Counted from the first letter of the stretch, positions 8,204 through 24,829 are shown. The stretch: 32,543 bases of DNA from Nitriliruptoraceae bacterium (GCA_003561535.1 PWWI01000247.1:1-32543), one strand, 5' to 3'. The notes: generated by a model from the letters alone, not told the origin. Numbers and translations: made by a program.

Positions 8204-10030
8204 ATGTGCGGCTTCAGTGGTGAGCTCCGGCTGGATGGCGCCAGCCCCGACGTGCGCGCCGTCAGCCGGATGGCCGCGACGATGTCCGATCGCGGCCCCG
8301 ACGGTGAGGGCCTGTGGGCCTCGGGACCGATCGCGCTCGGCCACCGGCGACTGTCCATCATCGACCTGTCCTCCTGCGGCAACCAGCCGATGCACGACCC
8401 GGAGCTCGGCCTGACCATCGCCTTCAACGGCTGCATCTACAACTACCAGCAGCTCCGTGCCGAACTCCAGGCCGAGCGCGGTTACCGGTTCTTCTCCACC
8501 TCCGACACCGAGGTGGTGCTCAAGGCCTACCACGCCTGGGGGGAGCGCTTCGTCGACCGGCTGCAGGGCATGTTCGCCTTCGTGCTCCACGAGCGGGACA
8601 CCGGCCGCAGCTTCCTGGCCCGGGACCGCTTCGGCATCAAGCCCCTCTACCTCGCCGAGACACCCGGACGGCTGCGGTTCGCCTCCACCCTGCCCGCCCT
8701 GCTCGCCGGCGGGGACGTCGACACCTCGATCGATCCCGTGGCCCTGCACCACTACCTCAGCTTCCACGCCGTCGTCCCGGCGCCGCACACGATCCTCTCC
8801 GGAGTGCGAAAGCTCCCGCCGGCCACCACCCGGGCGATCGAGCCCGACGGCACCATCACCGACACCGAGTTCTGGCGTCCCGACTTCACCCGGGACGAGG
8901 CCAAGGCCGACTGGAGCGAGCGGGACTGGGAGGACGCCGTCCTCGACGCGATGCGGCGTGCGGTCGACTGGCGCACCGTGGCGGACGTCCCCGTCGGCGT
9001 GCTGCTGTCGGGCGGGCTGGACTCCTCGATGGTGGTGGGGCTGCTCGCCGAGGCCGGGCAGACCGGCATCAACACCTTCTCGATCGGCTTCGAGGCGGCC
9101 GGTGGGGAGGAAGGCGACGAGTTCAAGTACTCCGACGTGATCGCTGCCGAGTTCGCCACCGAGCACCACCAGATCCGCATCGGTACGGAACGGATGCTCC
9201 CCGCCCTCGGCGACGCGATCCACGCGATGAGCGAACCGATGGTCAGCCACGACGCCGTCGCCTTCTACCTGCTGTCCCAGGAGGTCGCCAAGCACGTCAA
9301 GGTGGTGCAGTCCGGGCAGGGTGCCGACGAGGTCTTCGCCGGCTACCACTGGTACCCGCCGATGCAGGCGCTGACCGACGAACTCGGTCCCGGGGCCCCT
9401 CGTGAGCGGCTGGTCGCCCAGGCCGTGGACCGCTACCACGCCGCCTTCTTCGACCGTCCCCACGCGGAGATGGCCGAGGTGCTACGTCCCGAGCACCGGG
9501 TGGAGGAGGACGTCTCCCGGGCGCTGGTGGAGCGTCACTTCCTGCGCGACGGGGCGGAGACCGCCACCGACATGGCCCTGCGCCTCGACTCCCAGATCAT
9601 GCTGGTGGACGACCCCGTCAAGCGGGTCGACAACATGACCATGGCCGCCGGGCTGGAGGCGCGCGTGCCCTTCCTCGACCACGAGGTGCTGGAGATCGCC
9701 GCGCAGGTCCCACCCGAGCTCAAGCTGGCGCAGGAGGGCAAGGGGGTGCTCAAGGAGGCGGCCCGCCGGGTCATCCCGGACGAGGTGATCGACCGGCCCA
9801 AGGGGTACTTCCCCGTCCCGGCGCTCAAGTACCTCCAGGGTCCCTACCTCGGCCTGGTGCGCGACGCCCTCACGGCCCCCGAAGCCCGTGAGCGGGGCCT
9901 GTTCCGAGACGCCTACGTCGACCGCCTGCTGGCGGTGCCCAACCAGGAGCTCACCGCCCTGCGTGGGAACAAACTGTGGCAGCTCGCCCTGCTCGAGCTG
10001 TGGCTCCAGTCCCACGACGTGCGTCCCTGA
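8204..10030 (+). CDS. asnO: N-acetylglutaminylglutamine amidotransferase (NAGGN synthesis, AsnB-like)
   Basis: Amidates the dipeptide N-acetylglutaminylglutamine to the osmoprotectant NAGGN, using glutamine and ATP; cytoplasmic. The 608-aa protein starts MCGFSGEL, so Cys2 becomes the nucleophile of a class II glutaminase domain (about residues 2-200; SDRGPDGEG, FNGCIYNY and ARDRFGIKPLY are visible). The asparagine-synthetase-type domain follows, with the ATP PP-loop SGGLDSS near residues 269-275. The signature segment SGQGADEVFAGYHWYPPM marks the NAGGN subfamily rather than AsnB. The start is fixed by the required N-terminal Cys; GGAAGGA is 7 nt upstream. It is followed after 55 bp by the dedicated synthetase, which confirms the assignment. 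The third family member (M42 hydrolase) is not adjacent but at 23540. Confidence 0.93.
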   Translation: MCGFSGELRLDGASPDVRAVSRMAATMSDRGPDGEGLWASGPIALGHRRLSIIDLSSCGNQPMHDPELGLTIAFNGCIYNYQQLRAELQAERGYRFFSTSDTEVVLKAYHAWGERFVDRLQGMFAFVLHERDTGRSFLARDRFGIKPLYLAETPGRLRFASTLPALLAGGDVDTSIDPVALHHYLSFHAVVPAPHTILSGVRKLPPATTRAIEPDGTITDTEFWRPDFTRDEAKADWSERDWEDAVLDAMRRAVDWRTVADVPVGVLLSGGLDSSMVVGLLAEAGQTGINTFSIGFEAAGGEEGDEFKYSDVIAAEFATEHHQIRIGTERMLPALGDAIHAMSEPMVSHDAVAFYLLSQEVAKHVKVVQSGQGADEVFAGYHWYPPMQALTDELGPGAPRERLVAQAVDRYHAAFFDRPHAEMAEVLRPEHRVEEDVSRALVERHFLRDGAETATDMALRLDSQIMLVDDPVKRVDNMTMAAGLEARVPFLDHEVLEIAAQVPPELKLAQEGKGVLKEAARRVIPDEVIDRPKGYFPVPALKYLQGPYLGLVRDALTAPEARERGLFRDAYVDRLLAVPNQELTALRGNKLWQLALLELWLQSHDVRP

Positions 10031-10085
10031 TACCCCGGGGGCCGCCGGACCCCGCCTCCGCACCGCGACCCCCGAGGAGCCTGCC

Positions 10086-11882
10086 ATGGCGCAGCGCACC
10101 CCCGATCGTGACCACCGCAGCAACCGGAACCGTCGGCGCAGCACCGTCGCTCCGTACGACCAGGCACTGTCGACCCGACCCTGGGACGACCAGCCCGAGC
10201 ACCTCAGGGGTGACATCCGCCCCGAGGTCGCCCTGGAGTGCGGCTGGGGGCGGCTGCTCTTCGGCCAGACCTTCGCCGACCACGAGGCGCTGGTCGCCGA
10301 GGTTGCCAAGGAGGAGCCGGGTCGGCGCGACATCTGCATGTACGTGCGTGAACCCCATGTCGCGGTGAGCAAGGCGCCGCAGGAGCTGTTCATCGATCCG
10401 AGCCACACCTACCGGCTGTGGCTGCACACGTTGCGACCGAGCGCGGAATCCTCCCGTGGTGTCGTGGTGCGCAAGATGGCCAGCGCCGCCGATGCGGACG
10501 CGGTGAACCGGATCTACACCGAGACGGGCATGGTGACCGCGCCGACCGAGACGCTGTGGCGCAACCAGCTGACCCAGACCTTCACCTACCTCGTGGCCGA
10601 GGACACGGAGTCGGGTGAGGTCATCGGCACCGTGACCGGCGTCGACCACGTGTTCGCCTTCAACGACCCCGAGGGCGGCACCAGCCTGTGGTGCCTGGCC
10701 GTCGACCCGCAGACCTCCCGGCCCGGGGTCGGCCGGGCGTTGGTGCGCACCCTGGCCGAGCGGTACCAGGGCCGGGGTCGGGCCTACCTCGACCTGTCGG
10801 TGGTCCACGACAACCGGCCCGCCATCGCCTTGTACGAGCGGCTCGGGTTCGTGCGGGTGCCGGTGTTCGCCGTCAAGCGCAAGAACCCCATCAACGAACC
10901 GCTCTACACCGAGACACAGGACATCTCCGCCCTCAACCCCTACGCACGGATCATCGCCGAGGAGGCGATCCGCCGGGGGATCACTGTGCGGGTCCTGGAC
11001 GCCGAGTGGGGGGAGATGGATCTCTCGCACGGGGGCCGCGAGATCCGTACGCGTCAGGCGCTGTCGGAGTTGACCACGGCTGTCGCGATGAGCCGCTGTG
11101 ACGACAAGCGCATCACTCGTCGGCTCCTCGGGCGGGCCGGGCTCCGCGTGCCGCGGGGGATGCTCGCCGTCGACGACGCGGCGAACGCCGCGTTCCTCGC
11201 CGAGGTCGGTGACGTCGTTGTGAAGCCAGCACGCGGCGAGCAGGGAGCGGGTATCACCGTGGGTGTGAAGGATCCCGACGCCCTGGCTGCCGCGGTGCAG
11301 CACGCCGGGATGTTCTGTCCCGAGGTGCTGCTCGAGGAACGCGTGCAGGGAGAGGACCTGCGCATCGTGGTGATCGACGAGGAGGTGGTCGCGGCGGCCG
11401 TCCGCCGTCCGGCGGAGGTGATCGGCAATGGCCAGCTCCCCATCCGCGAACTGATCGAGCGGCAGAGCCGACGTCGCGCCGCTGCGACCGAAGGCGAGTC
11501 GACGATCCCGATGGACGAGCACACGACGGCCACCGTGGCAGAGCAGGGCTACGACCTCGACGACCCCCTGCCCGACGCTGAGGTGCTCACGGTGCGGCGC
11601 ACCGCCAACCTGCACACTGGTGGGACGATCCACGATGTGACTGCGCAACTGCATCCGGAGCTCGCCGACGCGGCCGTGCGGACCGCTCAGGTGATCGGTA
11701 TCCCGGTCGTGGGGGTGGATCTGTTGGTCACCGATGTCCGTCAGCCCGACCACGTCATCATCGAGGCGAACGAGCGTCCCGGACTCGCGAACCACGAGCC
11801 GCAGCCGGGCGTCGAGCGTTTCGTCGACCTACTTTTCCCGCAGACCCGGGCGCGGCCGGTCGGCTGGAAACCTTCGGTGTAG
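10086..11882 (+). CDS. ngs: N-acetylglutaminylglutamine synthetase (GNAT plus ATP-grasp)
   Basis: Bifunctional enzyme that acetylates glutamine and joins a second glutamine to give N-acetylglutaminylglutamine, the precursor of NAGGN. The 598-aa protein has an N-terminal family-specific region (to about 125) and a GNAT domain (about 125-275). GVGRALVRTLAERYQGRGRA is the acetyl-CoA loop near residue 215, and NRPAIALYERLGFVRV closes the domain. The ATP-grasp ligase half (about 340-590) shows VVVKPARGEQGAGI and the metal-binding end VIIEANERPGL. The start ATG has GAGGAG 6 nt upstream; the 66 codons before it in the track ORF overlap the previous gene. Co-transcription with asnO is likely (55-bp gap). 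A 219-bp gap follows before the ABC operon, which has its own candidate promoter. N-terminal residues 1-40 are rich in Arg and His, a common variable feature of this family. Confidence 0.93.
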   Translation: MAQRTPDRDHRSNRNRRRSTVAPYDQALSTRPWDDQPEHLRGDIRPEVALECGWGRLLFGQTFADHEALVAEVAKEEPGRRDICMYVREPHVAVSKAPQELFIDPSHTYRLWLHTLRPSAESSRGVVVRKMASAADADAVNRIYTETGMVTAPTETLWRNQLTQTFTYLVAEDTESGEVIGTVTGVDHVFAFNDPEGGTSLWCLAVDPQTSRPGVGRALVRTLAERYQGRGRAYLDLSVVHDNRPAIALYERLGFVRVPVFAVKRKNPINEPLYTETQDISALNPYARIIAEEAIRRGITVRVLDAEWGEMDLSHGGREIRTRQALSELTTAVAMSRCDDKRITRRLLGRAGLRVPRGMLAVDDAANAAFLAEVGDVVVKPARGEQGAGITVGVKDPDALAAAVQHAGMFCPEVLLEERVQGEDLRIVVIDEEVVAAAVRRPAEVIGNGQLPIRELIERQSRRRAAATEGESTIPMDEHTTATVAEQGYDLDDPLPDAEVLTVRRTANLHTGGTIHDVTAQLHPELADAAVRTAQVIGIPVVGVDLLVTDVRQPDHVIIEANERPGLANHEPQPGVERFVDLLFPQTRARPVGWKPSV

Positions 11883-12101: not shown

Positions 12102-13712
12102 ATGCAGAGCAACGACACATCGACAGGGCGATGGAGAAGGCGGAGGACGACGCTGGTCGCCACCGCAGTCGTCGCCGCACTGATCCTGACCGCATGCGCA
12201 GGAGATGGGCAAGCAGGCAGTGACGACCCGGTCGTCGTCGGTCAGGTAGCCGAGCCCGCGTCCCTCGATCCTCACGTTGTGACCGCGGTGAACGACTTCC
12301 GCATCAACATCAACCTCTACGACGGGCTCGTGCAGTACGCCGCTGACTCCCTGGAGGTGGAGCCGGCGCTGGCGGTCGACTGGACGATCAGCGACGACGG
12401 CACGCTCTACACCTTCGAACTCCGTGAAGGCGTCGAGTTCCACGATGGCACCCCCTTCGACGCCGAGGTGGTGAAGTTCAACTTCGACCGGATGCTCGAC
12501 GAGGACCACCCGTACCACGACACGGGTCCGTTCCCCCTCGCGCAGCAGTTCTACGGCAACCTGGCCGAAGTGCGCGTCGTCGACGAGCAGACCGTCGAGT
12601 TCGAGCTGTCCTCGCCTTTCGCTCCGTTCCTGTCCAACCTCGCCTACCCGACCGGGCTGCTGATCTCGCCGGCAGCCGTCGAGGCCCACGGGGAGGACGT
12701 GGGGCGCAACCCGGTGGGGACCGGCCCCTACGTCTTCTCGGAGTGGCAGAGCAACGAGTTCGTGACCCTCGAGCGCAACCCGGACTACTGGGATGGCGCA
12801 CCGGAGGTCCCCGGCGTGGTCTTCCGGCCGATCACCGAGTCCCAGACCCGGGTGAACGAGCTCATGTCGGGTGGGGCGGACATGATCGTCGAGGTCCCGC
12901 CCGACGACGTCGCAGCGCTGCGCGACGACCCCGAGTTCATGGTCGGGGAGCAGGCCGGTCCGCACGTGTGGTTCCTGATCCTCAACCTCGCCGAGGCGCC
13001 CTTCGACGACGTGCGGATGCGCAAGGCGGTCAACATGGCCATCGACAAGGAATCGATCGTCAACGATGTCCTCCAGGGCACGGCGACCGTCGCCAATGGT
13101 CCGATCGCCGAGGCCTTCGGCGCGGCGTACAACCCCGACCTCGAGCCCTACCCCTACGACCCGGATGCCGCCCGCGAGCTGATCGAAGAGGCGGGCTACG
13201 GCGACGGCGTCGAGGGGACCTTCTACGTGACCGAGGGCGGATCGGGCATGCTCGACCCCGTGGCGATGGGCGAGGCGATGCAGGCGGACCTGCGCGACGT
13301 CGGAATCGACGCGCGGATCTCGACCTTCGAGTGGAACAGCTTCCTCAACGAGGTCAATGCCGGGATCGAGGGCAAGGCCGACATGGCGCAGATGGCCTGG
13401 ATGACCGCCGACCCCGACACGCTCCCCTTCCTGACCCTGCGGTCAGGCGCTTGGCCCGACGAGGGTGGGTTCAACTCCGGCTACTACGCCAACGAGCGGG
13501 TCGACGAGCTGCTCGAGGCCGCCCAGATCGAGGTCGACGAGGACGCCCGGATCGCGATGTACCACGAGATGCAGGAGATCGTGGTCGAGGATGCCCCCTG
13601 GGTGTTCGTCGCCAGCTGGAAGCAGAGCGTTGCGATGTCGCCGCGGGTCGACGGGTTCGAGTTGCACCCCTCGTTCCTGCTGCGCCTGCACGACCTGCGC
13701 TGGGCTGACTGA
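12102..13712 (+). CDS. ABC transporter substrate-binding lipoprotein (family 5, peptide/nickel type)
   Basis: Extracytoplasmic solute-binding protein that delivers substrate to the permeases encoded downstream. The 536-aa product has an Arg-rich N-region, a hydrophobic core and lipobox LTAC with Cys32, so it is membrane-anchored. The mature protein has the family-5 hallmarks EPASLDPHVVTAVNDFRI, ALAVDWTISDDGTLYTFELREGVEFHDG (just after the lobe I start), a GTGPYVFSEW motif and RKAVNMAIDKESIV in lobe II. GGAGG lies 8 nt before the ATG; the track's earlier start (12063) lacks this. Family 5 binds peptides, nickel, opines, sugars and other solutes, so the ligand cannot be read directly. The hydrolases in the operon point to an amide- or carbamoyl-bearing compound. 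It is separated from the first permease by 71 bp containing a strong stem-loop. Confidence 0.92.
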   Translation: MQSNDTSTGRWRRRRTTLVATAVVAALILTACAGDGQAGSDDPVVVGQVAEPASLDPHVVTAVNDFRININLYDGLVQYAADSLEVEPALAVDWTISDDGTLYTFELREGVEFHDGTPFDAEVVKFNFDRMLDEDHPYHDTGPFPLAQQFYGNLAEVRVVDEQTVEFELSSPFAPFLSNLAYPTGLLISPAAVEAHGEDVGRNPVGTGPYVFSEWQSNEFVTLERNPDYWDGAPEVPGVVFRPITESQTRVNELMSGGADMIVEVPPDDVAALRDDPEFMVGEQAGPHVWFLILNLAEAPFDDVRMRKAVNMAIDKESIVNDVLQGTATVANGPIAEAFGAAYNPDLEPYPYDPDAARELIEEAGYGDGVEGTFYVTEGGSGMLDPVAMGEAMQADLRDVGIDARISTFEWNSFLNEVNAGIEGKADMAQMAWMTADPDTLPFLTLRSGAWPDEGGFNSGYYANERVDELLEAAQIEVDEDARIAMYHEMQEIVVEDAPWVFVASWKQSVAMSPRVDGFELHPSFLLRLHDLRWAD

Positions 13713-13722
13713 GCCGACGGTT

Positions 13723-13757
13723 GCCGTGGGGAGGGTGAGCGCCACGCTCCCCACGGC
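13723..13757 (+). terminator. Stem-loop between SBP and permease genes (attenuator or mRNA-stabilising hairpin)
   Basis: GCCGTGGGGA and TCCCCACGGC form a perfect 10-bp stem with a 15-nt loop, starting 10 bp after the SBP stop. No T-run follows. In many ABC operons such a hairpin protects the SBP message or partly ends transcription, so that the binding protein is made in excess over the permeases. This fits its position exactly. Confidence 0.55.
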
Positions 13758-13783
13758 GGCGTCGAGATCGCGGAAGGGAGCGC

Positions 13784-14734
13784 GTGCGCGCCTACGTCGT
13801 CCGGCGGGGGCTGCAGGTCATCCCGGTCACCTTCGGGGTGACGCTGCTGGTCTTCGCCATGATGCTGCTGATCCCGGGAGATCCGGCGCGCGCGATCCTC
13901 GGGTCGTACGCGACGCCGGAGAACGTCGCGACGCTCGAGCGACAGCTCGCGCTCGACCGTCCCCCGCACATCCAGTACGTCACCTGGCTCGGCAACGTGG
14001 TCACGGGTGATTTCGGACGCTCCTACTCGCTGAACCGCCCGGTCCTCGACGAGATCCTCGAGCGGTTCTCCGCAACCTTGCTGCTGGCCGGGACAGCCCT
14101 GTTGATCACGGTCGTGCTGGGACTCACGGCCGGCATCATCGCGGCCGTCAAGCAGCACCGCTGGCAGGACCGTGCCTTCACCGTCGGTGCCCTGGTTGGC
14201 CTGTCGATCCCGTCCTTCTGGCTCGCGATGATCTTCATCGTGGTGTTCGCGCTCGGCCTCGGGTGGTTCCCGACGAGCGGGATGCGTCCAGCCTTCGGGC
14301 CGAGCGGACCCTTGACCGTGCTGCACCACCTCGTGCTGCCGGCGACCGCCCTCGCGCTGGTCGCAGCCGGCGTGATCGCGCGCCTGACCAGGTCGAGCAT
14401 GCTCGAGGTCCTGCGTCAGGACTACGTGCGCACGGCGACCTCGAAGGGGATCACCCGGCAGTCGGTGATCATGCGGCATGCCTTCCGCAACGCGGTCGTC
14501 AACGTCGTGCCGGTGATCGGCGTGCAGGTCGGGTTCCTCCTCGGCGGCGCGGTGTACGTCGAGACCGTCTTCGGCTGGCCCGGCATCGGTCGCATGCTCG
14601 TCACCGCGATCGGAACGCGGGACATCCTGCTGGTCCAGGGTGGGGTGCTGCTGGTCGCAATCACCTACGTCCTGATCAATCTCGCGGCGGACCTCGTGCA
14701 GGCGGCGCTCGACCCGAGGATCCGGCTGGGATGA
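13784..14734 (+). CDS. ABC transporter permease (DppB/OppB type)
   Basis: First transmembrane subunit of the importer, 316 aa. It begins with the family pattern VVRRGLQVIPVTFGVTLLVFAMM (first helix) and the LIPGDPAR motif. About six membrane helices follow. The EAA loop that contacts the ATPase is DYVRTATSKGITRQSVIMRHAFRNA near residues 211-235. The C-terminus AALDPRIRLG is typical. The start is GTG 13784 with GGAAGGGAG upstream. Its stop overlaps the start of the next permease (ATGA), indicating translational coupling. Confidence 0.92.
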   Translation: MRAYVVRRGLQVIPVTFGVTLLVFAMMLLIPGDPARAILGSYATPENVATLERQLALDRPPHIQYVTWLGNVVTGDFGRSYSLNRPVLDEILERFSATLLLAGTALLITVVLGLTAGIIAAVKQHRWQDRAFTVGALVGLSIPSFWLAMIFIVVFALGLGWFPTSGMRPAFGPSGPLTVLHHLVLPATALALVAAGVIARLTRSSMLEVLRQDYVRTATSKGITRQSVIMRHAFRNAVVNVVPVIGVQVGFLLGGAVYVETVFGWPGIGRMLVTAIGTRDILLVQGGVLLVAITYVLINLAADLVQAALDPRIRLG

Positions 14735-15624
14735 GCGCCTCGACCGCGAGCCCCGATCAGACGCCCGACGACGGCGTCGTCGTTCCCCGGCGTGGGGGCA
14801 CGACCTGGCGGCGGTTGAAGCGCAACCGCCTATCGGTCGCCGGCCTGATCGTGCTCGCGATCGTCGTGCTGCTCGCACTGCTCGCGCCCGTCCTGCCGCT
14901 GATCGATCCGGCTGCGACCAACCCCGCCAACCGGCTGCAGCCGATCGGCTCCGAGGGTCACCTGCTCGGCACCGACCACCTCGGACGGGATCTGCTCTCC
15001 CGGCTGATCTGGGGTGGGCGCACCAGTCTCTCCGTCGGTGTGTTCGCGACGCTCATCGCGGCGTCGATCGGCTCGCTGATCGGGCTGATCGCCGGGTTCT
15101 TCGGAGGAGCCACGGACAACTCGCTGATGCGCGGCATCGACGTGCTGATGGCCTTCCCGTACCTGCTGCTCGCGATCGCCCTGGTGGCGGTCCTCGGTCC
15201 TGGGCTGGTCAACGCCATGATCGCGATCTCGATCGTGAACATCCCCTTCTTCGCGCGTGCCGTTCGGGGCACGACGGTGAGCCTGGTTGCCAGCGAGTAC
15301 GTCGACGCTGCCCGGGCGCTCGCCTTCAGCCGGCTGCGCATCCTGTTCCGTGAGGTCCTGCCGAACGTGATGCCGACGATCATCATCACGATGTCGACAA
15401 CCGTCGGCTGGATGATCACCGAGACCGCAGGACTGTCGTTCCTCGGTCTCGGTGCCCAGCCACCCACCTCGGACTGGGGAGCGATGCTCGGCGCCGGGCG
15501 GGAGTTCATCACCCGCGCCCCACACGTGATGATCGTGCCCGGCTCCGCGATCTTCCTGGTCGTGATCTCCCTCAACTTCCTCGGTGACGGCCTGCGCGAC
15601 GCCCTCGACCCGAGGTTGAAGTGA
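14731..15624 (+). CDS. ABC transporter permease (DppC/OppC type)
   Basis: Second transmembrane subunit, 297 aa. A ~30-residue cytoplasmic N-terminus (PRRGGTTWRRLKRNRLSVAG) precedes the first helix, as in OppC proteins. The family motif LLGTDHLGRDLLSRLIWGGRTSL follows, then five more helices with EAA loop EYVDAARALAFSRLRILFREVLPN. The C-terminus GDGLRDALDPRLK is characteristic. The track ORF starts 156 codons too early, inside the previous gene. ATG 14731 overlaps the preceding stop by 4 bases, and its own stop overlaps the next start. Confidence 0.92.
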   Translation: MSASTASPDQTPDDGVVVPRRGGTTWRRLKRNRLSVAGLIVLAIVVLLALLAPVLPLIDPAATNPANRLQPIGSEGHLLGTDHLGRDLLSRLIWGGRTSLSVGVFATLIAASIGSLIGLIAGFFGGATDNSLMRGIDVLMAFPYLLLAIALVAVLGPGLVNAMIAISIVNIPFFARAVRGTTVSLVASEYVDAARALAFSRLRILFREVLPNVMPTIIITMSTTVGWMITETAGLSFLGLGAQPPTSDWGAMLGAGREFITRAPHVMIVPGSAIFLVVISLNFLGDGLRDALDPRLK

Positions 15625-16628
15625 TGAGCGACGTGCGTGCCGACGCCCCCGACACCACCGCGCTGCTCGCGGTACGCGGCCTGCGCACCGATTTCGTGGT
15701 AGAGGACGAGGTGTACCGCGCCGTCGATGGGGTCGATCTCACGATCGGTCCGGGCGAGTCCGTCGGGCTCGTCGGTGAGTCCGGCTCGGGGAAGACCGTC
15801 ACGGCGATGTCGATCCTGCAGTTGATCCCCGATCCGCCGGGGCGCATCGTCGGGGGCTCGATCGAGATCGACGGGATCGACCTCGTGCGGGCACCCGAAC
15901 GCGTGCTACGCCAGGTGCGCGGCGGACGGATCGCGTGCGTGTTCCAGGACCCACTCACCTCGCTGAACCCGGTGCTGCAGATCGGTGATCAGCTCACCGA
16001 GATGATGCGGGCGCACCAGGACCTCGATCGCCGGGCGGCGCGCCGACGGGCTCGCGAACTGCTGGACGCCGTGCACATCCCACAAGCTGAGCGGCGACTC
16101 GCGGAGTACCCCCACGAACTCTCCGGTGGGATGCGCCAGCGTGTGATGATCGCGATGGCGCTGGCGAACGATCCCGAGCTGCTGATCGCGGACGAGCCAA
16201 CCACCGCCCTCGACGTCACCGTGCAGGCGGAGATCCTCGACTTGCTGCGTGAACTGCGGGAACGGACGGGGATGTCGCTGCTGTTCATCACCCACGACTT
16301 CGGGGTGGTCGCGGAGCTGTGCGACCGGGTGGTGGTCATGTACGCCGGGAAGGTCGTGGAGCAGGCTCCGGTGGAGAAGGTCTTCGCCGACGCCGCGCAC
16401 CCGTACACGCGACGCCTGGTCGACTGCATGCCGCAGCTGGGGGAGGGACGCAAGGATCTCGAGGTGATCCCCGGACTGCCTCCGGCGCTCAACCGGATCC
16501 CCGACGGATGTGCCTTCGCTGAACGCTGTGACGTCGCCGAGGAGGCATGCCGCCGAGGGACGATCGCGCTGGAGGGCTACGGCGAGGACCGGTTGGTGCG
16601 ATGCATCAAACCGGGGGCCCGGCCATGA
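15624..16628 (+). CDS. ABC transporter ATP-binding protein (DppD/OppD type)
   Basis: First of two nucleotide-binding subunits driving import, 334 aa. Visible are Walker A GESGSGKT, the Q-loop in FQDPLTSLNPV, signature LSGGMRQR, Walker B LLIADEPTTALD and the switch His in ITHDFG. The C-terminal oligopeptide-type extension has four Cys (CAFAERC, EAC, VRC). This is the arrangement that binds a [4Fe-4S] cluster in OppD/DppD proteins. The preceding permease stop overlaps the start (TGATG); the track's GTG three bases earlier is also possible. Its stop overlaps the start of the second ATPase. Confidence 0.92.
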   Translation: MSDVRADAPDTTALLAVRGLRTDFVVEDEVYRAVDGVDLTIGPGESVGLVGESGSGKTVTAMSILQLIPDPPGRIVGGSIEIDGIDLVRAPERVLRQVRGGRIACVFQDPLTSLNPVLQIGDQLTEMMRAHQDLDRRAARRRARELLDAVHIPQAERRLAEYPHELSGGMRQRVMIAMALANDPELLIADEPTTALDVTVQAEILDLLRELRERTGMSLLFITHDFGVVAELCDRVVVMYAGKVVEQAPVEKVFADAAHPYTRRLVDCMPQLGEGRKDLEVIPGLPPALNRIPDGCAFAERCDVAEEACRRGTIALEGYGEDRLVRCIKPGARP

Positions 16629-17656
16629 GCGAGGAGCGCGTGATCGGCCAGCCGGCCCTCGAGCCCGCCACCGCAGCGCCGGTGCTCGAGGCCCGCGACC
16701 TCGTCAAGCACTTCACGGCACGCCGCCGGTTGCTCGTGCCAGCGTTGGCACCGCTGCGGGCCGTGCAGGGTGTGTCGTTCCAGGTGCAGCGCGGCCAGGC
16801 ACTCGGGATCGTGGGTGAGAGCGGCTGCGGGAAGTCGACGCTCGCCAAGCTGGTCATGGGCCTGCATGAGCCGAGCTCGGGGACGGTGCTGCTGGACGGT
16901 CGCGATGTCTCCGAGATCCCCCGGACGGAGTTCGCGCGTCGGGTGCAGTTCGTGTTCCAGGATCCGTACTCGTCCCTCAACCCCCGCAAGACCGTGCGAC
17001 AGGCGCTGGATGCTCCGTTGCGACATCTCGCGGGGCTCGACGCTCCGGCACGTCGGGCTCGGACCGCGGAGCTGCTCGACCTCGTCGGGCTCCGGGCCGA
17101 GTTCGCGGACCGCTACCCGCACGAGTTCTCCGGCGGGCAGCGTCAACGGGTGGGCATCGCCCGTGCGCTCGCGAGCACGGCCGACGTGCTGCTGCTCGAC
17201 GAGCCGGTGTCGGCCCTGGACGTCTCGGTCCAGGCACAGGTGCTCAACCTGCTGCGGCAGCTGCAACAGGAGTTGAGTCTCACCTACGTGTTCATCGCCC
17301 ACGACCTCGCCGTCGTCGAGAACCTCTGCGACGAGGTCAGTGTGATGTACCTCGGTCGGATCGTCGAGCAGGCCCCCGCCGAGGTCCTGTTCGGCTCTCC
17401 GCGGCACCCCTACCCCCACACGCTGCTCTCGGCGATCCCGACGGGCGACCGATCGCAGCGACGGTTGCGGGTCGCAGCACCCGCCGGGGTGGACGGTCCC
17501 GCCGGCAGCGATGGGGGATGCGCCTTCGCTCCGCGTTGCTACCGCGTCGAGGAGCGATGCAACACCCACGTTCCACCGTTGTCCGCCGAACCCGCCGGCC
17601 ATCCGGTGGCCTGCCACTTCGCGGACGACACCGACCCTGAGGAGCATGCAGGATGA
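16625..17656 (+). CDS. ABC transporter ATP-binding protein (DppF/OppF type)
   Basis: Second nucleotide-binding subunit, 343 aa. It carries Walker A GESGCGKST, QFVFQDPYSSLNPR, signature FSGGQRQR, Walker B LLLDEPVSALD and switch His IAHDLAVV. The C-terminal four-Cys segment (CAFAPRC, RC, VAC) parallels that of its partner. The N-terminus has an unusual ~20-residue insertion (TARRRLLVPALAPLRAVQG) typical of OppF, where a linker separates the first strands. The start ATG overlaps the preceding stop (ATGA). The 26 track codons before it are shadow sequence. Confidence 0.92.
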   Translation: MSEERVIGQPALEPATAAPVLEARDLVKHFTARRRLLVPALAPLRAVQGVSFQVQRGQALGIVGESGCGKSTLAKLVMGLHEPSSGTVLLDGRDVSEIPRTEFARRVQFVFQDPYSSLNPRKTVRQALDAPLRHLAGLDAPARRARTAELLDLVGLRAEFADRYPHEFSGGQRQRVGIARALASTADVLLLDEPVSALDVSVQAQVLNLLRQLQQELSLTYVFIAHDLAVVENLCDEVSVMYLGRIVEQAPAEVLFGSPRHPYPHTLLSAIPTGDRSQRRLRVAAPAGVDGPAGSDGGCAFAPRCYRVEERCNTHVPPLSAEPAGHPVACHFADDTDPEEHAG

Positions 17657-18888
17657 ACATCGACACCGACCGCCTCCGCGCCGACCTCGAGGCCCTCGCG
17701 CGGTTCGGGGCGGACGACGACGGTGGCGTGAGCCGCCCGTCGTTCTCGCCCGCGGACCTCCAGGCCCGAGCCTGGCTGCAGGAACGGTGCGAGCGGGCCG
17801 GCCTGCACTACCGCGAGGACGTGGTCGGCAACGTCTTCATGCGGTTGGACGGTCCCGACGTCGCGCCGGTGTGGACCGGGTCGCACCTCGACTCGGTGCC
17901 CAACGGTGGTCGTCTGGATGGTGCCTTGGGGGTGGTCGCCGCCCTCGAGGTGGTCCGCAGCCTTCGTGAACAGCAGGTGACGCTCGCACGTCCTGTCGAG
18001 GCGGTGTCCTTCGCGGACGAGGAGGGCGGGTTCCTCGGCTTCCTGGGTTCGAGAGCCGTGGCGTCCGGCCTACGTCCTGCCGAGCTACGCGCGGTGGTGG
18101 GGCGCGACGGCCGCCGCCTGGTCGACGCGATGGAGCAGGTCGGTTTCGCGCCCGAGCAGGTCGAGGAGGCGCGCATCGACCCTTCATCGGTTCACGCGTT
18201 CGTCGAGATGCACATCGAGCAGGGGGTGGTCCTCGAGGACGCGGGGTTCGATGTTGGCGTGGTGAGCTCGATCGTCGGTGTGGGACGCTGCTCGGTGGAG
18301 TTCCGTGGACGACCCGACCACGCGGGCACGACGCCGATGCACCTCCGCCGTGATGCGATGCGAGGGGCGGCAGACCTGTTGGCGCAGGTTCCCGGGCTGC
18401 CGGGCGTCGTCGGGGCCCCCGATGCTGTGATCACCTGCGGCCGGCTCGACCTGCACCCGGACGCCTACAACATCGTGCCGGGGTGGGTGCGGTTGGGCTT
18501 CGACATCCGGCATCCAGATCGCACGATCATCGAAGCGCTTGAGCGCGAGGTGGCCGAACGTGCGGCTGATGCGGCCGAACTGCATCATCTCGAGGTGAAG
18601 CACGTCCCCGAGAGCCTGACCGACCCGACCCCGTTGGACGACCGGATCCGGCAGCTCACGCGCGATGCCGCCGACGAGGTGGGGGCGACCTGGCTGGACA
18701 TGCCGTCGGGGGCCGGACACGATTCGCAGGTGATCGCGCCCCTGGTGCCGACCGGCATGGTGTTCGTACCGAGCGTCGACGGCCGCAGCCATTCGCCGCT
18801 CGAGCGGACGTCGTGGGAGGACATCGCGGCCGGCACCTCGGTGCTCTACGGCGTCGTGCGCAGGCTGGCGACGGACGGGCGGACATGA
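17653..18888 (+). CDS. M20-family Zn-dependent amidohydrolase (N-carbamoyl-amino-acid hydrolase/allantoate amidohydrolase type)
   Basis: Enzymes of this family (AllC, HyuC, beta-ureidopropionase) hydrolyse ureido or carbamoyl groups to ammonia, CO2 and an amine. The 411-aa protein has every metal-site block: GSHLDSVPNGG (H78), DGALGV (D89), ADEEGGF (E123/E124) and EMHIEQG (H187). A dimerisation-domain segment RPDHAGTTPM and MPSGAGHDSQ near the C-terminus complete the signature. EMHIEQG and the HAGTTPM region separate it from M20 peptidases. It is coupled to the ATPase gene by an ATGA overlap, so its substrate is very likely what the transporter imports. Which ureide is involved (allantoate, N-carbamoyl amino acid, carbamoyl-beta-alanine) is not resolved. 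Confidence 0.88.
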   Translation: MNIDTDRLRADLEALARFGADDDGGVSRPSFSPADLQARAWLQERCERAGLHYREDVVGNVFMRLDGPDVAPVWTGSHLDSVPNGGRLDGALGVVAALEVVRSLREQQVTLARPVEAVSFADEEGGFLGFLGSRAVASGLRPAELRAVVGRDGRRLVDAMEQVGFAPEQVEEARIDPSSVHAFVEMHIEQGVVLEDAGFDVGVVSSIVGVGRCSVEFRGRPDHAGTTPMHLRRDAMRGAADLLAQVPGLPGVVGAPDAVITCGRLDLHPDAYNIVPGWVRLGFDIRHPDRTIIEALEREVAERAADAAELHHLEVKHVPESLTDPTPLDDRIRQLTRDAADEVGATWLDMPSGAGHDSQVIAPLVPTGMVFVPSVDGRSHSPLERTSWEDIAAGTSVLYGVVRRLATDGRT

Positions 18889-19568
18889 CGGACAAGCTGG
18901 ATCGGGGTGGGCTCGCCGCGGTCTACCCCCAAGGTCACTGGCCGCCGGTGGACCCGGCCCGTGCCGCCTTGCTTCTCATCGACCTGCAGCGGCTGTGCGT
19001 GGCGCCGGACCGAGGGATGTTCGCCAGCGCCGAGCAGCTCGGGATCGCGGAGCGGATGGCGCCGTACGGTCGCCGCCTGGAGGAGCTCGTGCTGCCGAAC
19101 GCGGCCGCACTGGCTGGGGCGTTCCGGGCCGCCGGGGCTCCTGTGATCTACACACGGATCCGGTCGTCGATCCCCGACGGATCCGATCGCTCCGGATGTC
19201 ACGTGCGGCTCGGGTTGCTCGTGCCCCCCGACCACCCGGACGGCGACATCGTCGCGGCCGTGGCGCCGGGACCGGACGACGTCGTGTTGTCGAAGACCAC
19301 GTCGGACGCCTTCATCGGGACGGGGCTCGAGCGGCTGCTCCGCAACGGTGCGGTCGAGCACCTCGTGGTGAGCGGCGTCCTGACCAACGAGTGCGTCTCG
19401 AGTACCGTGCGTCACGCCGCCGACATCGGGTTCACGGTCACCGCCGTGGAGGATGCCTGCGCCGGCATCGAGCACGACCTGCACGAAGCATCGATCCGGA
19501 TCCTGGGTCGCACCTACGCTCGCATCGCCACCACCGCCGAGCTGCTGCGGGAAGTCGGGGGATCATGA
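18885..19568 (+). CDS. Isochorismatase-fold cysteine hydrolase (amidase type)
   Basis: Cysteine hydrolase of the isochorismatase/nicotinamidase superfamily, which includes N-carbamoylsarcosine amidase, ureidoacrylate hydrolase and biuret hydrolase. The 227-aa protein has the full catalytic triad: D33 in LLLIDLQ, K137 in LSKTTSDAF and C170 in GVLTNECVSST, with the cis-peptide region just before the Cys. A ~20-residue N-terminal arm precedes the fold. The ATG overlaps the preceding stop (ATGA); the track's upstream start lies inside the M20 gene. Next to an M20 ureidohydrolase, an amidase acting on a carbamoyl intermediate is the most economical idea. Isochorismate itself is unlikely, as no siderophore genes are present. 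Confidence 0.87.
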   Translation: MTDKLDRGGLAAVYPQGHWPPVDPARAALLLIDLQRLCVAPDRGMFASAEQLGIAERMAPYGRRLEELVLPNAAALAGAFRAAGAPVIYTRIRSSIPDGSDRSGCHVRLGLLVPPDHPDGDIVAAVAPGPDDVVLSKTTSDAFIGTGLERLLRNGAVEHLVVSGVLTNECVSSTVRHAADIGFTVTAVEDACAGIEHDLHEASIRILGRTYARIATTAELLREVGGS

Positions 19569-20488
19569 GGGAGGAGACGGGCGTCAACGGACTCGCGCGC
19601 AGGATCCGTGAGTCCTACGGGCAGTTCACGCCCGCGGAGTCCCAGATCGCGGATCTGCTGCTTGCGTCGCCCGAGCTGATGCTCGGCTTCACCGCCACCG
19701 AGCTGGCGGCTCGAGCCGGGGTCTCCAAGCCGACGGTGACGCGGTTCGTCGGGCGGCTCGGTCTGTCGAGCTTCCAGGAGTTCCGAGAGCGAGCCCGCAG
19801 CAACCACGTGCCCGAGCCGGGTTCACCACTCGATCTGCTGGCCAGGGCCCTCGACGTCACCGGCGGAGACCTCGGGGTGCTCGTCACCGAGTCGCTGCGG
19901 CGGGACATCGACAACCTCGAACGCACCTACCTCGGTCTGGATTCGGAGCAGCTCGATGTCCTCGTCGATCTGCTGGTGGACGCCCCACGGGTGGCCTTCG
20001 CGGACTTCCGCAAGCAGTACGCGCTGGCGTACTACGCGGGCACGCTGTTCAACTCGATACGCCCGGACGTCCGCGTCCTGCCGGCACCCGGGACCTCGGC
20101 CGAGGATGGGCTGCTCGATCTCGGCGCAGGCGACCTGGCCGTGCTGTTCCCGTTCCGTCGCGCCCAACGTGATCATGAGATCACCGCGCGCGCGGTGGTT
20201 GATCGCGGCGCGACACTGGTGTCGATCGGTGATCGTCACCCGAACCATGCGGACGCGCTCGCGACGATCCACCTCGTCTGCGAGAGCGGGGGGGTCGGGT
20301 TGTTCGACAGCCTGGTCGCGCCGATGAGCATCATCAACCTGCTCTTCACGGCGACCGCCAACCGCCTCGGAGAGCCGGCCCAGGAGCGCTTGGCCGATCT
20401 CGAACGGCAGCACCGGACCTTCGGCACGTTCGTCCGCGAGTCATCCGGTCGTTCGGCCTCCGGGCGCGAGGCGATGTGGCTGCAGTGA
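19565..20488 (+). CDS. MurR/RpiR family transcriptional regulator
   Basis: Likely local regulator of the ABC/hydrolase operon. The 307-aa protein has an N-terminal RpiR helix-turn-helix (about residues 1-77), with LTPAESQIAD-like start and the recognition helix GVSKPTVTRFVGRLGLSSFQEF. A SIS sugar-isomerase-type effector domain (about 115-250) follows, beginning RRDIDNLERTY. Its LFPFRR and SIGDRHPNHA stretches are where SIS proteins bind ligand. The C-terminal tail is short. It is translated from an ATGA overlap with the hydrolase gene. RpiR regulators respond to sugar phosphates in many cases, but others control ureide or amino-acid breakdown. The inverted repeat at 12022-12042 is a natural target to test. 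Confidence 0.88.
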   Translation: MREETGVNGLARRIRESYGQFTPAESQIADLLLASPELMLGFTATELAARAGVSKPTVTRFVGRLGLSSFQEFRERARSNHVPEPGSPLDLLARALDVTGGDLGVLVTESLRRDIDNLERTYLGLDSEQLDVLVDLLVDAPRVAFADFRKQYALAYYAGTLFNSIRPDVRVLPAPGTSAEDGLLDLGAGDLAVLFPFRRAQRDHEITARAVVDRGATLVSIGDRHPNHADALATIHLVCESGGVGLFDSLVAPMSIINLLFTATANRLGEPAQERLADLERQHRTFGTFVRESSGRSASGREAMWLQ

Positions 20489-20530
20489 CGCGCCGTGGGC
20501 CGCGAGACCACCGGGGGGCAGCGCATCACC

Positions 20531-21490
20531 TCAGCCGATGATCGCACCGACGGTGAGGCGCGCCAGGACCAGTGACGCCACCACCATCGCCAGCGCCAGG
20601 CCGAAGACGGCGTTGCGCCGCGTGGCCGCCTGTTCGCGGTCGACCATCAGCAGCCTGCCCGCCACCACCCCGGCGAGGAGCCCCCCCAGGTGGCCTCCGA
20701 CGGAGATGCTCGGGATGAGGAAGGTCAGCACGAGGTTCAGGGCGACCAGGGTCCCGATCGTGGTCTGCCAGGGGTTCACCCCCCGGGCACGCAGCACGAC
20801 CATGGCCGCGCCCATCAGACCGAACACCGCCCCCGAGGCGCCGATCGTGAGCTGGAGCGGGTTGCCGCCGAGGATGCGGCCGACCAGCTCGATGCCGCTG
20901 ATGCCGGCCAGGGTCGAGACCCACGACACCAGCACCACGCCCAGGCTCCCACCGAACAGTCCGGCGGTGTACAGCGCCACGTAACGGCCCCGTCCCAGCA
21001 GCGGCTCGAGGAGGTGGCCGAGCTGCCACAGCAGGAGGCCGTTGAAGCCGACGTGCATGAGGTTGGCGTGCAGGAAGCCGCTGGTGAGCAGCAGCCAGGG
21101 TTCCCCGATCGTCTGGGCGAGCTGCGATGGCTGGTACCAGCCCGCCAGGCTGGCCAGGACGGCCACGCCCGACGGCGTGAGCACGATGGGCCGCAGGCCG
21201 AAGGTGGCGGTGACCGCGGGGACGACCGAGGTGACCAGGAACAGCACGGCGATGACCCCGACCAGCACCCGCGTGACCGGCGCATGCTGGACGACGTCGA
21301 CCATGCGGCGCACCGGTTGGCCGCCCTGGGCGCAGCGGGGGCACTGGTAGCCGACCGGCGCCTCGATGGCGTCCTCACCGCAGACCGGCTGCTCGCAGCG
21401 CGAGCAGCGCAGCAGGGCGGGACGGCCAGGGTGCAGGTAGCAGGCCGGGCGGTCCGTGGTGCCGCCGCCGTCCGCCGCGTCCTGGCTCAC
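20531..21490 (-). CDS. Rhomboid family intramembrane serine protease with N-terminal zinc-binding domain
   Basis: Rhomboids cleave substrates inside the membrane. In this 319-aa protein the catalytic Ser is S219 in GASGAVFG and the catalytic His is H267 in GGHLGG. HANLMHVGFN (residues 141-150) supplies the conserved helix-2 His/Asn. About seven helices span residues 75-315. Before them, residues 15-55 form a B-box-like zinc module (C17, H20, C29, C32, C37, C50, C53), a fusion seen in several actinobacterial rhomboids. The start is set at GTG 21490, with GAGGTGG about 4 nt upstream; the track's 33 extra codons are Arg/Pro-rich. It is convergent with the RpiR gene. The diguanylate cyclase lies downstream of another gap on the same strand but is transcribed toward this gene, 112 bp away. 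Confidence 0.9.
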   Translation of the reverse strand: MSQDAADGGGTTDRPACYLHPGRPALLRCSRCEQPVCGEDAIEAPVGYQCPRCAQGGQPVRRMVDVVQHAPVTRVLVGVIAVLFLVTSVVPAVTATFGLRPIVLTPSGVAVLASLAGWYQPSQLAQTIGEPWLLLTSGFLHANLMHVGFNGLLLWQLGHLLEPLLGRGRYVALYTAGLFGGSLGVVLVSWVSTLAGISGIELVGRILGGNPLQLTIGASGAVFGLMGAAMVVLRARGVNPWQTTIGTLVALNLVLTFLIPSISVGGHLGGLLAGVVAGRLLMVDREQAATRRNAVFGLALAMVVASLVLARLTVGAIIG

Positions 21491-21602: not shown

Positions 21603-23405
21603 TCAGGTCGCGAACAGCACGGGCGGTGCAGGCTCCCCGTGCGCGAGTTTGCGGTGCTCCTTCACGGTGTACATCGCGGCGTCGGCCCGGGCGAGGAGCG
21701 TGTCCGTGGTGTCCTGTGAGCGGGCCATCGCGGCGCCGATCGACACCTCGACCCGGACCGTGGCGGCCTCCAGCGCGATCGGCTGGGCGACCACCCACGC
21801 GGCACGCTCGCCGAGGTGCTGGAGCGTCGTGGGGTCGCAGGGGGACAGCAGGATGCAGAACTCGTCCCCGGCCAGCCGACACACCAGATCCGTGTCCCGC
21901 ACGGTGGTCTGGAGTCGGCGGGCGACGGTGACCAGGACCTGGTCGCCGATCCCGTGCCCGAAGGAGTCGTTGACGGGCTTGAACGCGTCGAGATCCAGGA
22001 ACAGCACCCCGACCGCGGCGCCGGCCGCCCGGCGCTCCTCGATCTCCTGGTACAGCCGCGATCGGTTCGCCAGCCCCGTGAGGAGATCGTGACTCGCGCG
22101 GTACTCGAGGTAGGCCTCCCGCCGCTTGCGGTCGGTGACGTCCCGCGCCATCCCGTACACGCCCACCACTCGGCCGTCCACCACGATCGGCAGCAGGTCG
22201 AAATCGGCATGGCTGGTGGTGCCGTCGGGGGGGGTCAGCAGCACCTCGAGGCCCTGGGCCGTCCCCGAGAGCGCCGCACCGATCGCGACCCGGGCCTCGT
22301 CACGGTAGGAGGTCTCGATGAGCCCGAGCACGGAGGAGCCGACCAGCTCCTCCCGGCGCCGGAGGAACAGCTCGATCCCCGCGGGGTTGATGTCGACGAT
22401 GCTGCCGTCCACGTCGAGCCCGAACACCGCGTCGAGGTTGCGGGAGAACAGCGCGCGGTAGCGCTGCTCGGAGACCGAGCGTTCGTGCTCGGCGGCCCGG
22501 CGGGCGGTCACGTCCCGCGCCACCACGTAGCTCAGCTGGTCGGTCGGCTCGCGGCGCACGCTGAGCTCCAACCACACGGTGGAGCCGTCCCCGTGCCGCA
22601 GGGCGTGCTGCTCCGGCTCGCCCGTGCTCGGACGCGAGCCGGCGAGCGACCGCTCGTCCTCGCCGACCACCAGCGAGGCCCAGGTCCGACCGATCAGGTC
22701 GGTCGGCGAGATCCCCAGCAGCCGTTCGGCAGCTGCGTTGGCCGATCGGATGCGGTCGTGGTCATCGACCGTGAGGATCAGCTCAGGCGACAGCTCCAGC
22801 GCGTGCTGGGCCCGTTGCTGGGCGCGGTCGAGTTGGCGCACCACGGCCCCGACCAGCAGCGAGACGAGCAGGACCGAGACCACCTGGGACACCAGGTGCT
22901 GCGGCGGTGGGAGCCCGTCCAGGGCGGCCCCGTACGTCGTCACCAGCCAGGCGCCGGCCACCCCGCCACCGAGCAGGCCACCCACCAGGCCCCCGACGAC
23001 CTGCCAGCGCAGCGCACCCTGCAGCGCGAGGAGGGGGGTCAGGGCGACCACGGGGTCGGTCGGATCCTGGGACACCGCCATCAGGATGAGCACGGTCGCG
23101 AAGGCATCCAGGCTGAAGCTCGTGAGCCCCGCGGCCGTGAGCCCCCGCGGGGTCGCCGGTCGGCGCAGCAGCCGCTCGGTCACCAGCACGTTGACGACCA
23201 TGAGCCCTGAGACGATCCAGAGCCGCCCGCCGGGCCCACCCGTCAGCGTCACCGTCAGGCCGAGGCACAACAGGACCACCGCGTAGCGGATCTGCTGGAT
23301 CAGCCGTTCCGTGCGGTGGCGTTGCTCCAGCGGGCGCGGCACCGATGCCCCGTGGTGCGCCCATGCAGCGGCCAACCGGTGGGTCGGTCGTGGTCGGGTG
23401 GCCAT
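21603..23405 (-). CDS. Membrane-bound diguanylate cyclase with PAS-PAS-GGDEF domains
   Basis: Makes the second messenger c-di-GMP from GTP. The 600-aa protein has about six N-terminal membrane helices (residues ~35-205), then PAS 1 (SPELILTVDDHDRIRSANAAAE) and PAS 2 (LDAVFGLDVDGSIVDINPAG). A GGDEF domain opens with HDLLTGLANRSRLY. The metal Asp lies in LFLDLDAFKPVND, and the active-site motif is AGDEF (near residue 510), a common active variant. The product-inhibition I-site RxxD is present five residues upstream (RDTD). No EAL domain follows. The start is placed at ATG 23405; the track starts at a TTG 16 codons earlier, without a better ribosome site. It is divergent from the M42 gene, sharing a 134-bp promoter region. 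Confidence 0.9.
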   Translation of the reverse strand: MATRPRPTHRLAAAWAHHGASVPRPLEQRHRTERLIQQIRYAVVLLCLGLTVTLTGGPGGRLWIVSGLMVVNVLVTERLLRRPATPRGLTAAGLTSFSLDAFATVLILMAVSQDPTDPVVALTPLLALQGALRWQVVGGLVGGLLGGGVAGAWLVTTYGAALDGLPPPQHLVSQVVSVLLVSLLVGAVVRQLDRAQQRAQHALELSPELILTVDDHDRIRSANAAAERLLGISPTDLIGRTWASLVVGEDERSLAGSRPSTGEPEQHALRHGDGSTVWLELSVRREPTDQLSYVVARDVTARRAAEHERSVSEQRYRALFSRNLDAVFGLDVDGSIVDINPAGIELFLRRREELVGSSVLGLIETSYRDEARVAIGAALSGTAQGLEVLLTPPDGTTSHADFDLLPIVVDGRVVGVYGMARDVTDRKRREAYLEYRASHDLLTGLANRSRLYQEIEERRAAGAAVGVLFLDLDAFKPVNDSFGHGIGDQVLVTVARRLQTTVRDTDLVCRLAGDEFCILLSPCDPTTLQHLGERAAWVVAQPIALEAATVRVEVSIGAAMARSQDTTDTLLARADAAMYTVKEHRKLAHGEPAPPVLFAT

Positions 23406-23526: not shown

Positions 23527-23532
23527 TAGCGT
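23527..23532 (+). promoter_or_regulatory. Candidate -10 (TAGCGT) giving a leaderless M42 transcript
   Basis: TAGCGT ends 7 bp before the ATG of the M42 gene, and no ribosome site is visible. A start of transcription at or next to the A of ATG would give a leaderless message, which is common in actinobacteria. Confidence 0.38.
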
Positions 23533-23539
23533 CCGGTCC

Positions 23540-24829
23540 ATGACCCCACCACCACCCGCCCTCAACCTGGATATCGACACCGCCTGGATGCAGCAGGTGC
23601 TGCTCGAGTTGCTCCGTATCCCCAGCCCCACGGGGCGCACCGACGTGATCATGCAGCACGTGGGTGAGCGGTTGCAGGAGATCGGGCTCGAGTTCGAGCT
23701 GACCCGGCGGGGCGCGTTGATCGCCCGCCTCGAGGGCGCCGACCCCGGGGTGCCGCTGGACCGTGCCGTGGTGGTGCACACCGACACGATCGGATGCATG
23801 GTCACCCACCTGAAGGACAACGGCCGCCTCCAGGTGACCCAGGTCGGCACCCACAGCTCCCGGTTCTCCGAGGGCACCCGGGTCAGCATCTTCACCGACG
23901 ATCCCGACTGCACCTACTCGGGGACGATCCTGCCCACCAAGGCCTCGGGTCACGCCTTCGGGGACGAGATCGACACCCACCCCCACGGTTGGGAGCACGT
24001 GGAGGTCCGCGTCGACGAGCGGGTGCACAGCGCGGGGGACCTGCGCGACCTCGGCATCCAGGTCGGCGACTTCGTGGCCCAGACCGCCTACCCGGTCATC
24101 ACCCGGTCGGGGTTCGTCCCCTCCCGCCACCTCGACGACAAGGCCGGGGTGGCCGCGGTGCTCGCGGCGTTCAAGGCCGTGGTCGACAGCCAGGCCCACC
24201 TGGAGGTCGGCGCCCACCTGCTGATCACCATCTCCGAGGAGGGGGGTCACGGCGCCTCCAGCGGGCTGTCCCGTGACGTGGCGGAGATGGTCTCGGTCGA
24301 CTCCGCCGTGGTGGCACCTGGTCAGCACTCCACCGAGACCGGGGTCAGCATCGCCATGCAGGACATGTCCGGGCCCTTCGACTACCACCTGACCCGTCGG
24401 CTGCACGCGCTGGGGCGGGCCCACGGCATCGAGGTCAACCGGGACGTGTTCCGCTACTACCGCTCCGACGTGGCCGCGGCCATCGAGGCCGGCGCGGAGA
24501 CCCGAGCCGCGTTGATGGGGTTCGGCGTGGACGCCACCCATGGCCACGAGCGCACCCACCTCGACGCGATCGTCGCCACCGCTCGGCTCGTGTCGCTGTA
24601 CCTCCAGACCCCGCTGACCTTCGGGCGCTGGGACGAGCGCCCGACCGGGCCGCTGGAGCGGTTCCCCTCCTCGGCCGTGCAGCCCGTTCGGCACGAACCG
24701 GAGCTCGATCCCGAGGCGGAGGAGCTGGTGGAGAACGAGCCCTTCCCGGAGTTGGAGACCGAGCTCGGCGGTCCCCACCCGTCACCCCGTCGTGGGGGCC
24801 CACCCCACGGGGTCGCGGGCCCGGACTGA
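23540..24829 (+). CDS. NAGGN-associated M42 family hydrolase (third member of the NAGGN trio)
   Basis: Dinuclear-metal aminopeptidase-like hydrolase of the M42 subfamily that usually sits beside the two NAGGN genes; it may trim or recycle the osmolyte or its precursors. Metal-site residues are visible: VVVHTDTIG (H80, D82), SRHLDDKAG (D199/D200), ISEEGGHGAS (E233/E234), VSVDSAVVAPGQ (D254) and DATHGHERTH (H334/H340). Subfamily traits recalled from other members are the RRGALIARLEG start, TILPTKASGHAFGDEIDTHP and FRYYRSD. The 429-aa protein is longer than usual: after the fold ends near residue 361, a ~68-residue acidic, Pro-rich tail follows. ATG 23540 is the first start consistent with the family N-terminus; the 65 track codons before it overlap the divergent gene. 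It is about 11.7 kb from asnO/ngs. Confidence 0.85.
   Translation: MTPPPPALNLDIDTAWMQQVLLELLRIPSPTGRTDVIMQHVGERLQEIGLEFELTRRGALIARLEGADPGVPLDRAVVVHTDTIGCMVTHLKDNGRLQVTQVGTHSSRFSEGTRVSIFTDDPDCTYSGTILPTKASGHAFGDEIDTHPHGWEHVEVRVDERVHSAGDLRDLGIQVGDFVAQTAYPVITRSGFVPSRHLDDKAGVAAVLAAFKAVVDSQAHLEVGAHLLITISEEGGHGASSGLSRDVAEMVSVDSAVVAPGQHSTETGVSIAMQDMSGPFDYHLTRRLHALGRAHGIEVNRDVFRYYRSDVAAAIEAGAETRAALMGFGVDATHGHERTHLDAIVATARLVSLYLQTPLTFGRWDERPTGPLERFPSSAVQPVRHEPELDPEAEELVENEPFPELETELGGPHPSPRRGGPPHGVAGPD

Follow-up and report, generated by a model that had tools for sequence, protein, structure and literature searches.

NAGGN (Ac-Gln-Gln-NH2) is an osmoprotectant dipeptide in which one peptide bond links the residues, and an N-acetyl amide and a C-terminal amide block the ends. 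The NAGGN genes form a trio, asnO-ngs-M42, whose members usually adjoin one another, both in Proteobacteria and in the other families of the class considered here. In the window, by which we mean the whole 32,543-nucleotide stretch analysed, a contig of a metagenome-assembled genome (MAG) from a salt-lake actinobacterium of the Nitriliruptoraceae, the M42 gene instead lies 11.7 kb off, with an importer/hydrolase operon between it and its partners. How did this operon come to lie there, and is NAGGN the compound that it handles? The trio and its regulation are already known, and PA3461 carries the name hypothetical glutamyl aminopeptidase (PMC8070244).

The NAGGN trio is present and split

We found that all three trio families are encoded at the locus, as the preliminary description had proposed: in profile searches, each protein exceeded its curated cut-off. 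AsnO, the N-acetylglutaminylglutamine amidotransferase (8204-10030, + strand), scored 990 bits on TIGR03104 (cut-off 570) and shares 93-96% identity with its congeners. Ngs, the N-acetylglutaminylglutamine synthetase with GNAT and ATP-grasp parts (about 10086-11882, + strand), scored 852 bits on TIGR03103 (cut-off 569), and the trio-type M42 peptidase (23540-24829, + strand) scored 494 bits on TIGR03106 (cut-off 398). In gene order, in strand and in passing all three cut-offs, the set is like the PA3459-PA3461 type of trio. The three genes lie on one strand with asnO and ngs adjacent, and the coordinates confirmed the reported split of about 11.7 kb: the ngs stop and the M42 start are 11.66 kb apart, separated by an ABC-importer operon, a rhomboid gene and a PAS-GGDEF gene, and the genes thus do not form a compact three-gene cassette. 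The M42 protein did not fall below the trio cut-off, nor did a whole-genome search find a second trio-type M42 gene in this MAG (81% complete; a copy in the missing part is possible); either outcome had been named beforehand as evidence against the split.

The ngs-M42 interval is an old and variable site

The split is not special to this locus: the distance between ngs and M42 varies from 0.1 to 21.6 kb within the same family. We ran TIGR03106 and TIGR03103 searches on 100 relatives, of which the closest named ones are Nitriliruptoraceae MAGs and one Egibacter MAG, and found ngs and M42 on one contig in constant order and strand. The gap is 0.1-0.2 kb in G005, G021 and most genomes of families f3 and f5. 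Shorter splits measure 3.1 kb (G002), 3.4 kb (G015), 5.8 kb (G031), 6.7 kb (G012) and 7.2 kb (G020), and longer ones 8.8 kb (G011), 14 kb (G026), 17 kb (G027) and 22 kb (G030). Split trios are therefore frequent in this Nitriliruptoria family. The preliminary description had also offered independent assembly of the trio at this locus; the constancy of gene order and strand throughout the class led us to reject it.

In most split-trio members of the family, gene maps show ngs followed immediately by a rhomboid gene that runs in the opposite direction. The rhomboid protease gene of the window (20531-21490, - strand; PF01694), which occupies the same place in most family members, is such an ancestral resident between ngs and M42, and the PAS-GGDEF diguanylate cyclase gene (21603-23342, - strand; PF00990) is a genus-level resident, present in congeners without the operon. 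Further cargo differs among relatives: the interval of G026 holds a sugar-type ABC operon with an anhydro-MurNAc kinase, that of G020 holds a MoxR/VWA pair, and genes that correspond in size and position occur in G011, G012, G019, G024, G027 and G031. Because the rhomboid gene recurs 3' of ngs while the remaining cargo varies, the ngs-M42 interval is an old, variable site.

Some individual loci deserve mention. Genus g12 carries a sugar-type ABC operon and an anhydro-N-acetylmuramic acid kinase in the interval (L066, 7300-13710; L064). A MoxR-like ATPase and VWA gene pair lies between rhomboid and M42 in L070 (7211-10703), and pairs of similar size and position occur in L062, L069, L071, L074, L089 and L096, which span several other genera. 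In one otherwise compact trio, ngs is present as two overlapping pieces (G050:C5:21757-23426), suggesting a frameshift or sequencing error. Another genome has a trio-type M42 (L080, G016:C78) and no full ngs match; at 88% completeness, loss and gap are both possible.

The operon almost certainly entered by homologous recombination

According to the preliminary description, the operon (12102-20488), the rhomboid gene and the diguanylate cyclase gene might all have been inserted into the cassette. This held for the operon, which is absent from congeners and both of whose boundaries we located, but not for the other two genes. The order in the congener G002 is asnO-ngs-rhomboid-GGDEF-M42 with no operon, and a second congener, G003, shows the same operon-free order as far as its contig reaches. 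Because operon-free congeners already carry them, the rhomboid and GGDEF genes predate the operon at the locus, and a joint insertion of all three was rejected.

The left recombination breakpoint is placed inside ngs, at 10889-10900, by 337 informative sites: to the left, 136 sites agree with the congener and 5 with the donor-like genome, whereas to the right the numbers are 28 and 168. The ngs gene of the window is 82-98% identical to its congeners just left of 10,889 and only 64-79% identical right of 10,900; at the same breakpoint, its identity to G028, which belongs to another genus, goes up from 72-83% to 89-94%. The right boundary of the imported block lies at 20489-20530, between the RpiR stop and the rhomboid gene: there the match to G028 falls off from 87-96% to about 60% identity, and that to G003 improves to 76-92%. 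The block as a whole is about 90-96% identical to another genus and has a GC content of 69%, compared with 71-73% in most of the flanks. Across genomes, ngs 3' halves group by operon presence, not by genus: those of operon-bearing genomes are 75-91% identical to each other, as against 67-71% to operon-free congeners. Together, the sharp breakpoint, the far boundary, the grouping of the 3' halves and the GC content indicate that ngs is a chimera and that the operon was carried with a foreign ngs 3' half. From these sequence comparisons we regard it as nearly certain that a block of about 9.6 kb (the ngs 3' half and the SBP-OppBCDF-M20-isochorismatase-RpiR genes) took the place of the 3' end of ngs in a congener-like ancestor whose rhomboid and GGDEF genes already lay between ngs and M42, and that the operon was acquired horizontally, by homologous recombination.

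No transposase or integrase family was found among the scanned genes of the interval; on that ground, and because the boundaries fit homologous recombination, a mobile element was rejected as the vehicle. An assembly chimera of two soda-lake metagenome populations is a very improbable source of the recombinant ngs: the window and its relatives are indeed mostly MAG contigs, but the ngs-operon and operon-rhomboid junctions recur in assemblies G010 and G028, the artefact would require two joins at homologous points, and near the breakpoint no more than 14-15 identical bases are common to the congener and donor proxies.

The operon encodes a peptide-type importer and two hydrolases

All genes of the operon lie on the + strand. 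A solute-binding protein (SBP) of the SBP_bac_5 family, DppA/GsiB-like in alignment with E. coli DppA, OppA and GsiB (12102-13712; PF00496), is followed by OppB-type (13784-14734; PF00528, PF19300) and OppC-type (14731-15624; PF00528, PF12911) permeases and by OppD-type (15624-16628) and OppF-type (16601-17656) ATPases, each with PF00005 and PF08352. The Dpp/Opp-type set is thus complete: an SBP_bac_5 protein, two BPD permeases and two ATPases with oligo_HPY. It matches the SBP-B-C-D-F set of Dpp/Opp/Gsi-type peptide ABC importers, and GsiB, DppA and OppA are homologous to the SBP; in contrast to those importers, the SBP here scores below every specific NCBIfam cut-off and has not kept the amine-binding Asp. 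This residue (D408 in DppA, D419 in OppA), through which these proteins bind a peptide's free amino terminus, is aligned with Ala here and with Asn or Ser in relatives, or else with a gap. Its loss would fit an end-blocked ligand, a point that is suggestive only because the alignment is gapped at that site in one version.

Next come an M20-type amidohydrolase of the hydantoinase/carbamoylase family (17653-18888; TIGR01879, 369 bits, cut-off 204; NF006771, 438 bits, cut-off 399), whose nearest solved structure is the N-carbamoyl-L-amino acid hydrolase 3n5f; an isochorismatase-family amidase (18885-19568; PF00857), which keeps Asp-Lys-Cys in alignments with solved cysteine hydrolases; and an RpiR-type regulator with HTH_6 and SIS domains (19565-20488; PF01418, PF01380). 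For the M42 protein, the nearest solved relative is 2gre, deposited as a deblocking aminopeptidase. Carbamoyl compounds are the typical substrates of the M20 and isochorismatase families, and some L-carbamoylases also take off acetyl groups. Allantoate and carbamoyl amino acid operons are similar in that an M20 enzyme over TIGR01879 and NF006771 adjoins an isochorismatase-family amidase; the present operon differs from operons of the hydantoinase/carbamoylase family in lying between NAGGN synthesis genes and a trio M42 gene, and in having no hydantoinase or allantoinase. A promoter scan of the ngs-SBP gap, uninformative at this GC content, returned nothing sigma-70-like, and its one weak terminator-like site lies inside ngs.

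The importer adjoins ngs in relatives

Among 101 relatives, SBP orthologues of at least 80% identity occur in six genomes only (G000, G028, G032, G010, G043 and G062), which span two families; the next matches are at 40% identity or below. The SBP gene lies 3' of ngs in 6/6, either directly or with one gene between, and the operon is absent from most Nitriliruptoria that have the trio. In the Egibacter sp. genome (G043), the operon leads into a C26-type hydrolase gene, which in turn overlaps the trio M42 gene (497 bits) by 4 bases: importer operon and hydrolase are there one directon within the trio.

The importer lies near M42 in some genomes without full ngs

An SBP alignment scan of about 85,000 species genomes yielded 65 loci, mostly in bacteria with saline or alkaline habitat names (habitat was read from names alone). 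Carriers include Halomonas, Aidingimonas, Natronospirillum, Saccharospirillum, Natronohydrobacter, Roseibaca, Salinarimonas and Great Salt Lake MAGs. Full ngs was present in 6 of the 50 carrier genomes tested and a trio-type M42 in 20, of which 15 had no full ngs. In these Proteobacteria, which have importer and trio-type M42 but no full ngs, the M42 start lies 3-9 kb from the SBP gene without exception (15/15), and M42 is placed in at least three arrangements: 3' and convergent, 3' and co-directional, or 5' beside the M20 gene. Ten of 151 genomes drawn from the Halomonadaceae carry a trio-type M42, two of them beside ngs; the other eight (8/8) have the SBP within 8 kb, an SBP found in only 9/151, and these linkage counts are inflated by kinship since genomes within a clade are not independent. 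The importer-M42 linkage recurs in separate lineages.

Loci of halophilic Proteobacteria (Halomonas, Aidingimonas, Natronospirillum, Pelagibacterium) share with the window an orthologous SBP-OppBCDF set (SBP 61-69%) and an M20-family enzyme, as well as the trio-type M42 in the 15 genomes without full ngs; unlike the window operon, they have a GntR-FCD regulator and DUF1028 in place of RpiR and isochorismatase. Among 40 importer loci of at least 18 kb, the GntR regulator was present in 37, DUF1028 in 35, the M20 gene in 23 and M42 in 15. M42 is not essential to the module, because most proteobacterial importer loci (mainly Rhodobacteraceae) lack it, though M20 and DUF1028 are usually there. A single contig of Salinarimonas rosea carries both a compact trio and, 28 kb away, the importer. 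The DUF1028 gene (L111, 8832-9500, and orthologues) is divergent from the proteobacterial importer and is a candidate third hydrolase replacing the isochorismatase. A Rhodobiaceae MAG has an extra asnO-like gene (29% identity) after its trio M42 gene (L193, 7690-9015).

The importer-linked M42 proteins themselves score 335-430 bits on TIGR03106, a range that straddles the cut-off (398). They rank well above the distant M42 proteins of other families and below the trio M42 proteins in this set. Trio and importer-linked proteins have 52 invariant positions in common, including the metal-ligand motifs, and 22 of these differ in the outgroup; at no position does a fixed difference separate the two sets. 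The M42 tree gathers the trio proteins into a single group (support 83/92), with the importer-linked ones branching around it; the tree is rooted on a single distant outgroup, and this rooting is unsafe.

On another view, the spot 3' of ngs is simply a tolerant insertion site, and the operon that settled there scavenges nitrogen in the ordinary way, by importing ureides, hydantoins or carbamoyl amino acids; we consider this unlikely. The variable interval, with its unrelated cargo in other genera, and the high allantoate/carbamoylase family scores would agree with such an importer; however, a close SBP orthologue occurs nowhere else in the 101 relatives than by ngs, and the linkage to M42 recurs in a different phylum in several arrangements.

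A proposed module for NAGGN uptake and breakdown

The same importer beside the same hydrolase in bacteria that do not make NAGGN suggests that the operon imports and degrades NAGGN. Whether NAGGN or its breakdown products are recovered by the operon was a question raised in the preliminary description, and the importer-M42 linkage without full ngs gives recovery strong support from context. Our favoured reading, which we hold to be probable by a modest measure, is that the locus is a NAGGN synthesis cassette with a recombined-in NAGGN uptake and breakdown operon, and that M42 is a turnover enzyme. The operon adds an M20 enzyme and an isochorismatase-type amidase, so that together with M42 there would be one hydrolase for each blocking or linking bond of NAGGN. 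The import substrate of SBP-OppBCDF would be NAGGN or a glutamine derivative much like it, neutral and end-blocked; M42 would cut the internal peptide bond, the M20 enzyme would take off the N-terminal acyl group, and the isochorismatase-type amidase would take off the terminal amide, giving back glutamine. RpiR may regulate the operon. M42 would then be the turnover, not a biosynthetic, enzyme of the trio, and the host could synthesise NAGGN when salt-stressed, take back NAGGN that has leaked out or comes from the environment, and use the nitrogen in it again. We infer both NAGGN as the substrate and each of these cleavage steps.

The main rival substrate to NAGGN is carbamoylglutamine amide (CGA), the second osmolyte known to be neutral and masked; its description comes from halophilic Ectothiorhodospira (PMC1224877). 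With CGA, the M20 and isochorismatase enzymes would strip two blocking groups, and M42 would be a bystander or act on another substrate. Beyond its occurrence in a halophile, CGA suits the M20 enzyme, which exceeds the hydantoinase/carbamoylase cut-off and has a carbamoylase as its nearest solved relative, and many carriers without M42 retain the M20 and DUF1028 genes. CGA nevertheless gives M42 no role, and leaves unexplained both why a trio-type M42 tracks the importer in ngs-free genomes and why the Nitriliruptoria copies all adjoin ngs; we think it improbable as the substrate.

Returning to NAGGN, our judgement is evenly balanced on a broader claim: that halophiles from two or more phyla, makers and non-makers alike, possess an undescribed NAGGN uptake and catabolic module (SBP-OppBCDF with M42, M20 and amidase), that the trio M42 is the hydrolase of NAGGN, and that salt-lake organisms share NAGGN as an osmolyte and a source of nitrogen. 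The last part would follow, if the module is real, from its presence in both makers and non-makers; NAGGN would then be exchanged between community members, as are ectoine and betaine. Searches of the open-access literature turned up no account of how NAGGN is imported or degraded. The linkage suggests a concrete role for the trio M42 hydrolase and names candidate transporter genes in cultured halophiles.

Genes flanking the trio

Beside M42, positions 24916-29297 hold the conserved housekeeping genes for adenosine deaminase, YebC/PmpR, RuvA and RuvB. An acetamidase/formamidase-family gene (FmdA_AmdA; 2413-4137) lies 5' of asnO and is kept in the congener G002. A potassium/proton antiporter gene (29406-30926; NF003716, 492 bits), another osmotic or pH adaptation gene, lies 3' of the M42 region.
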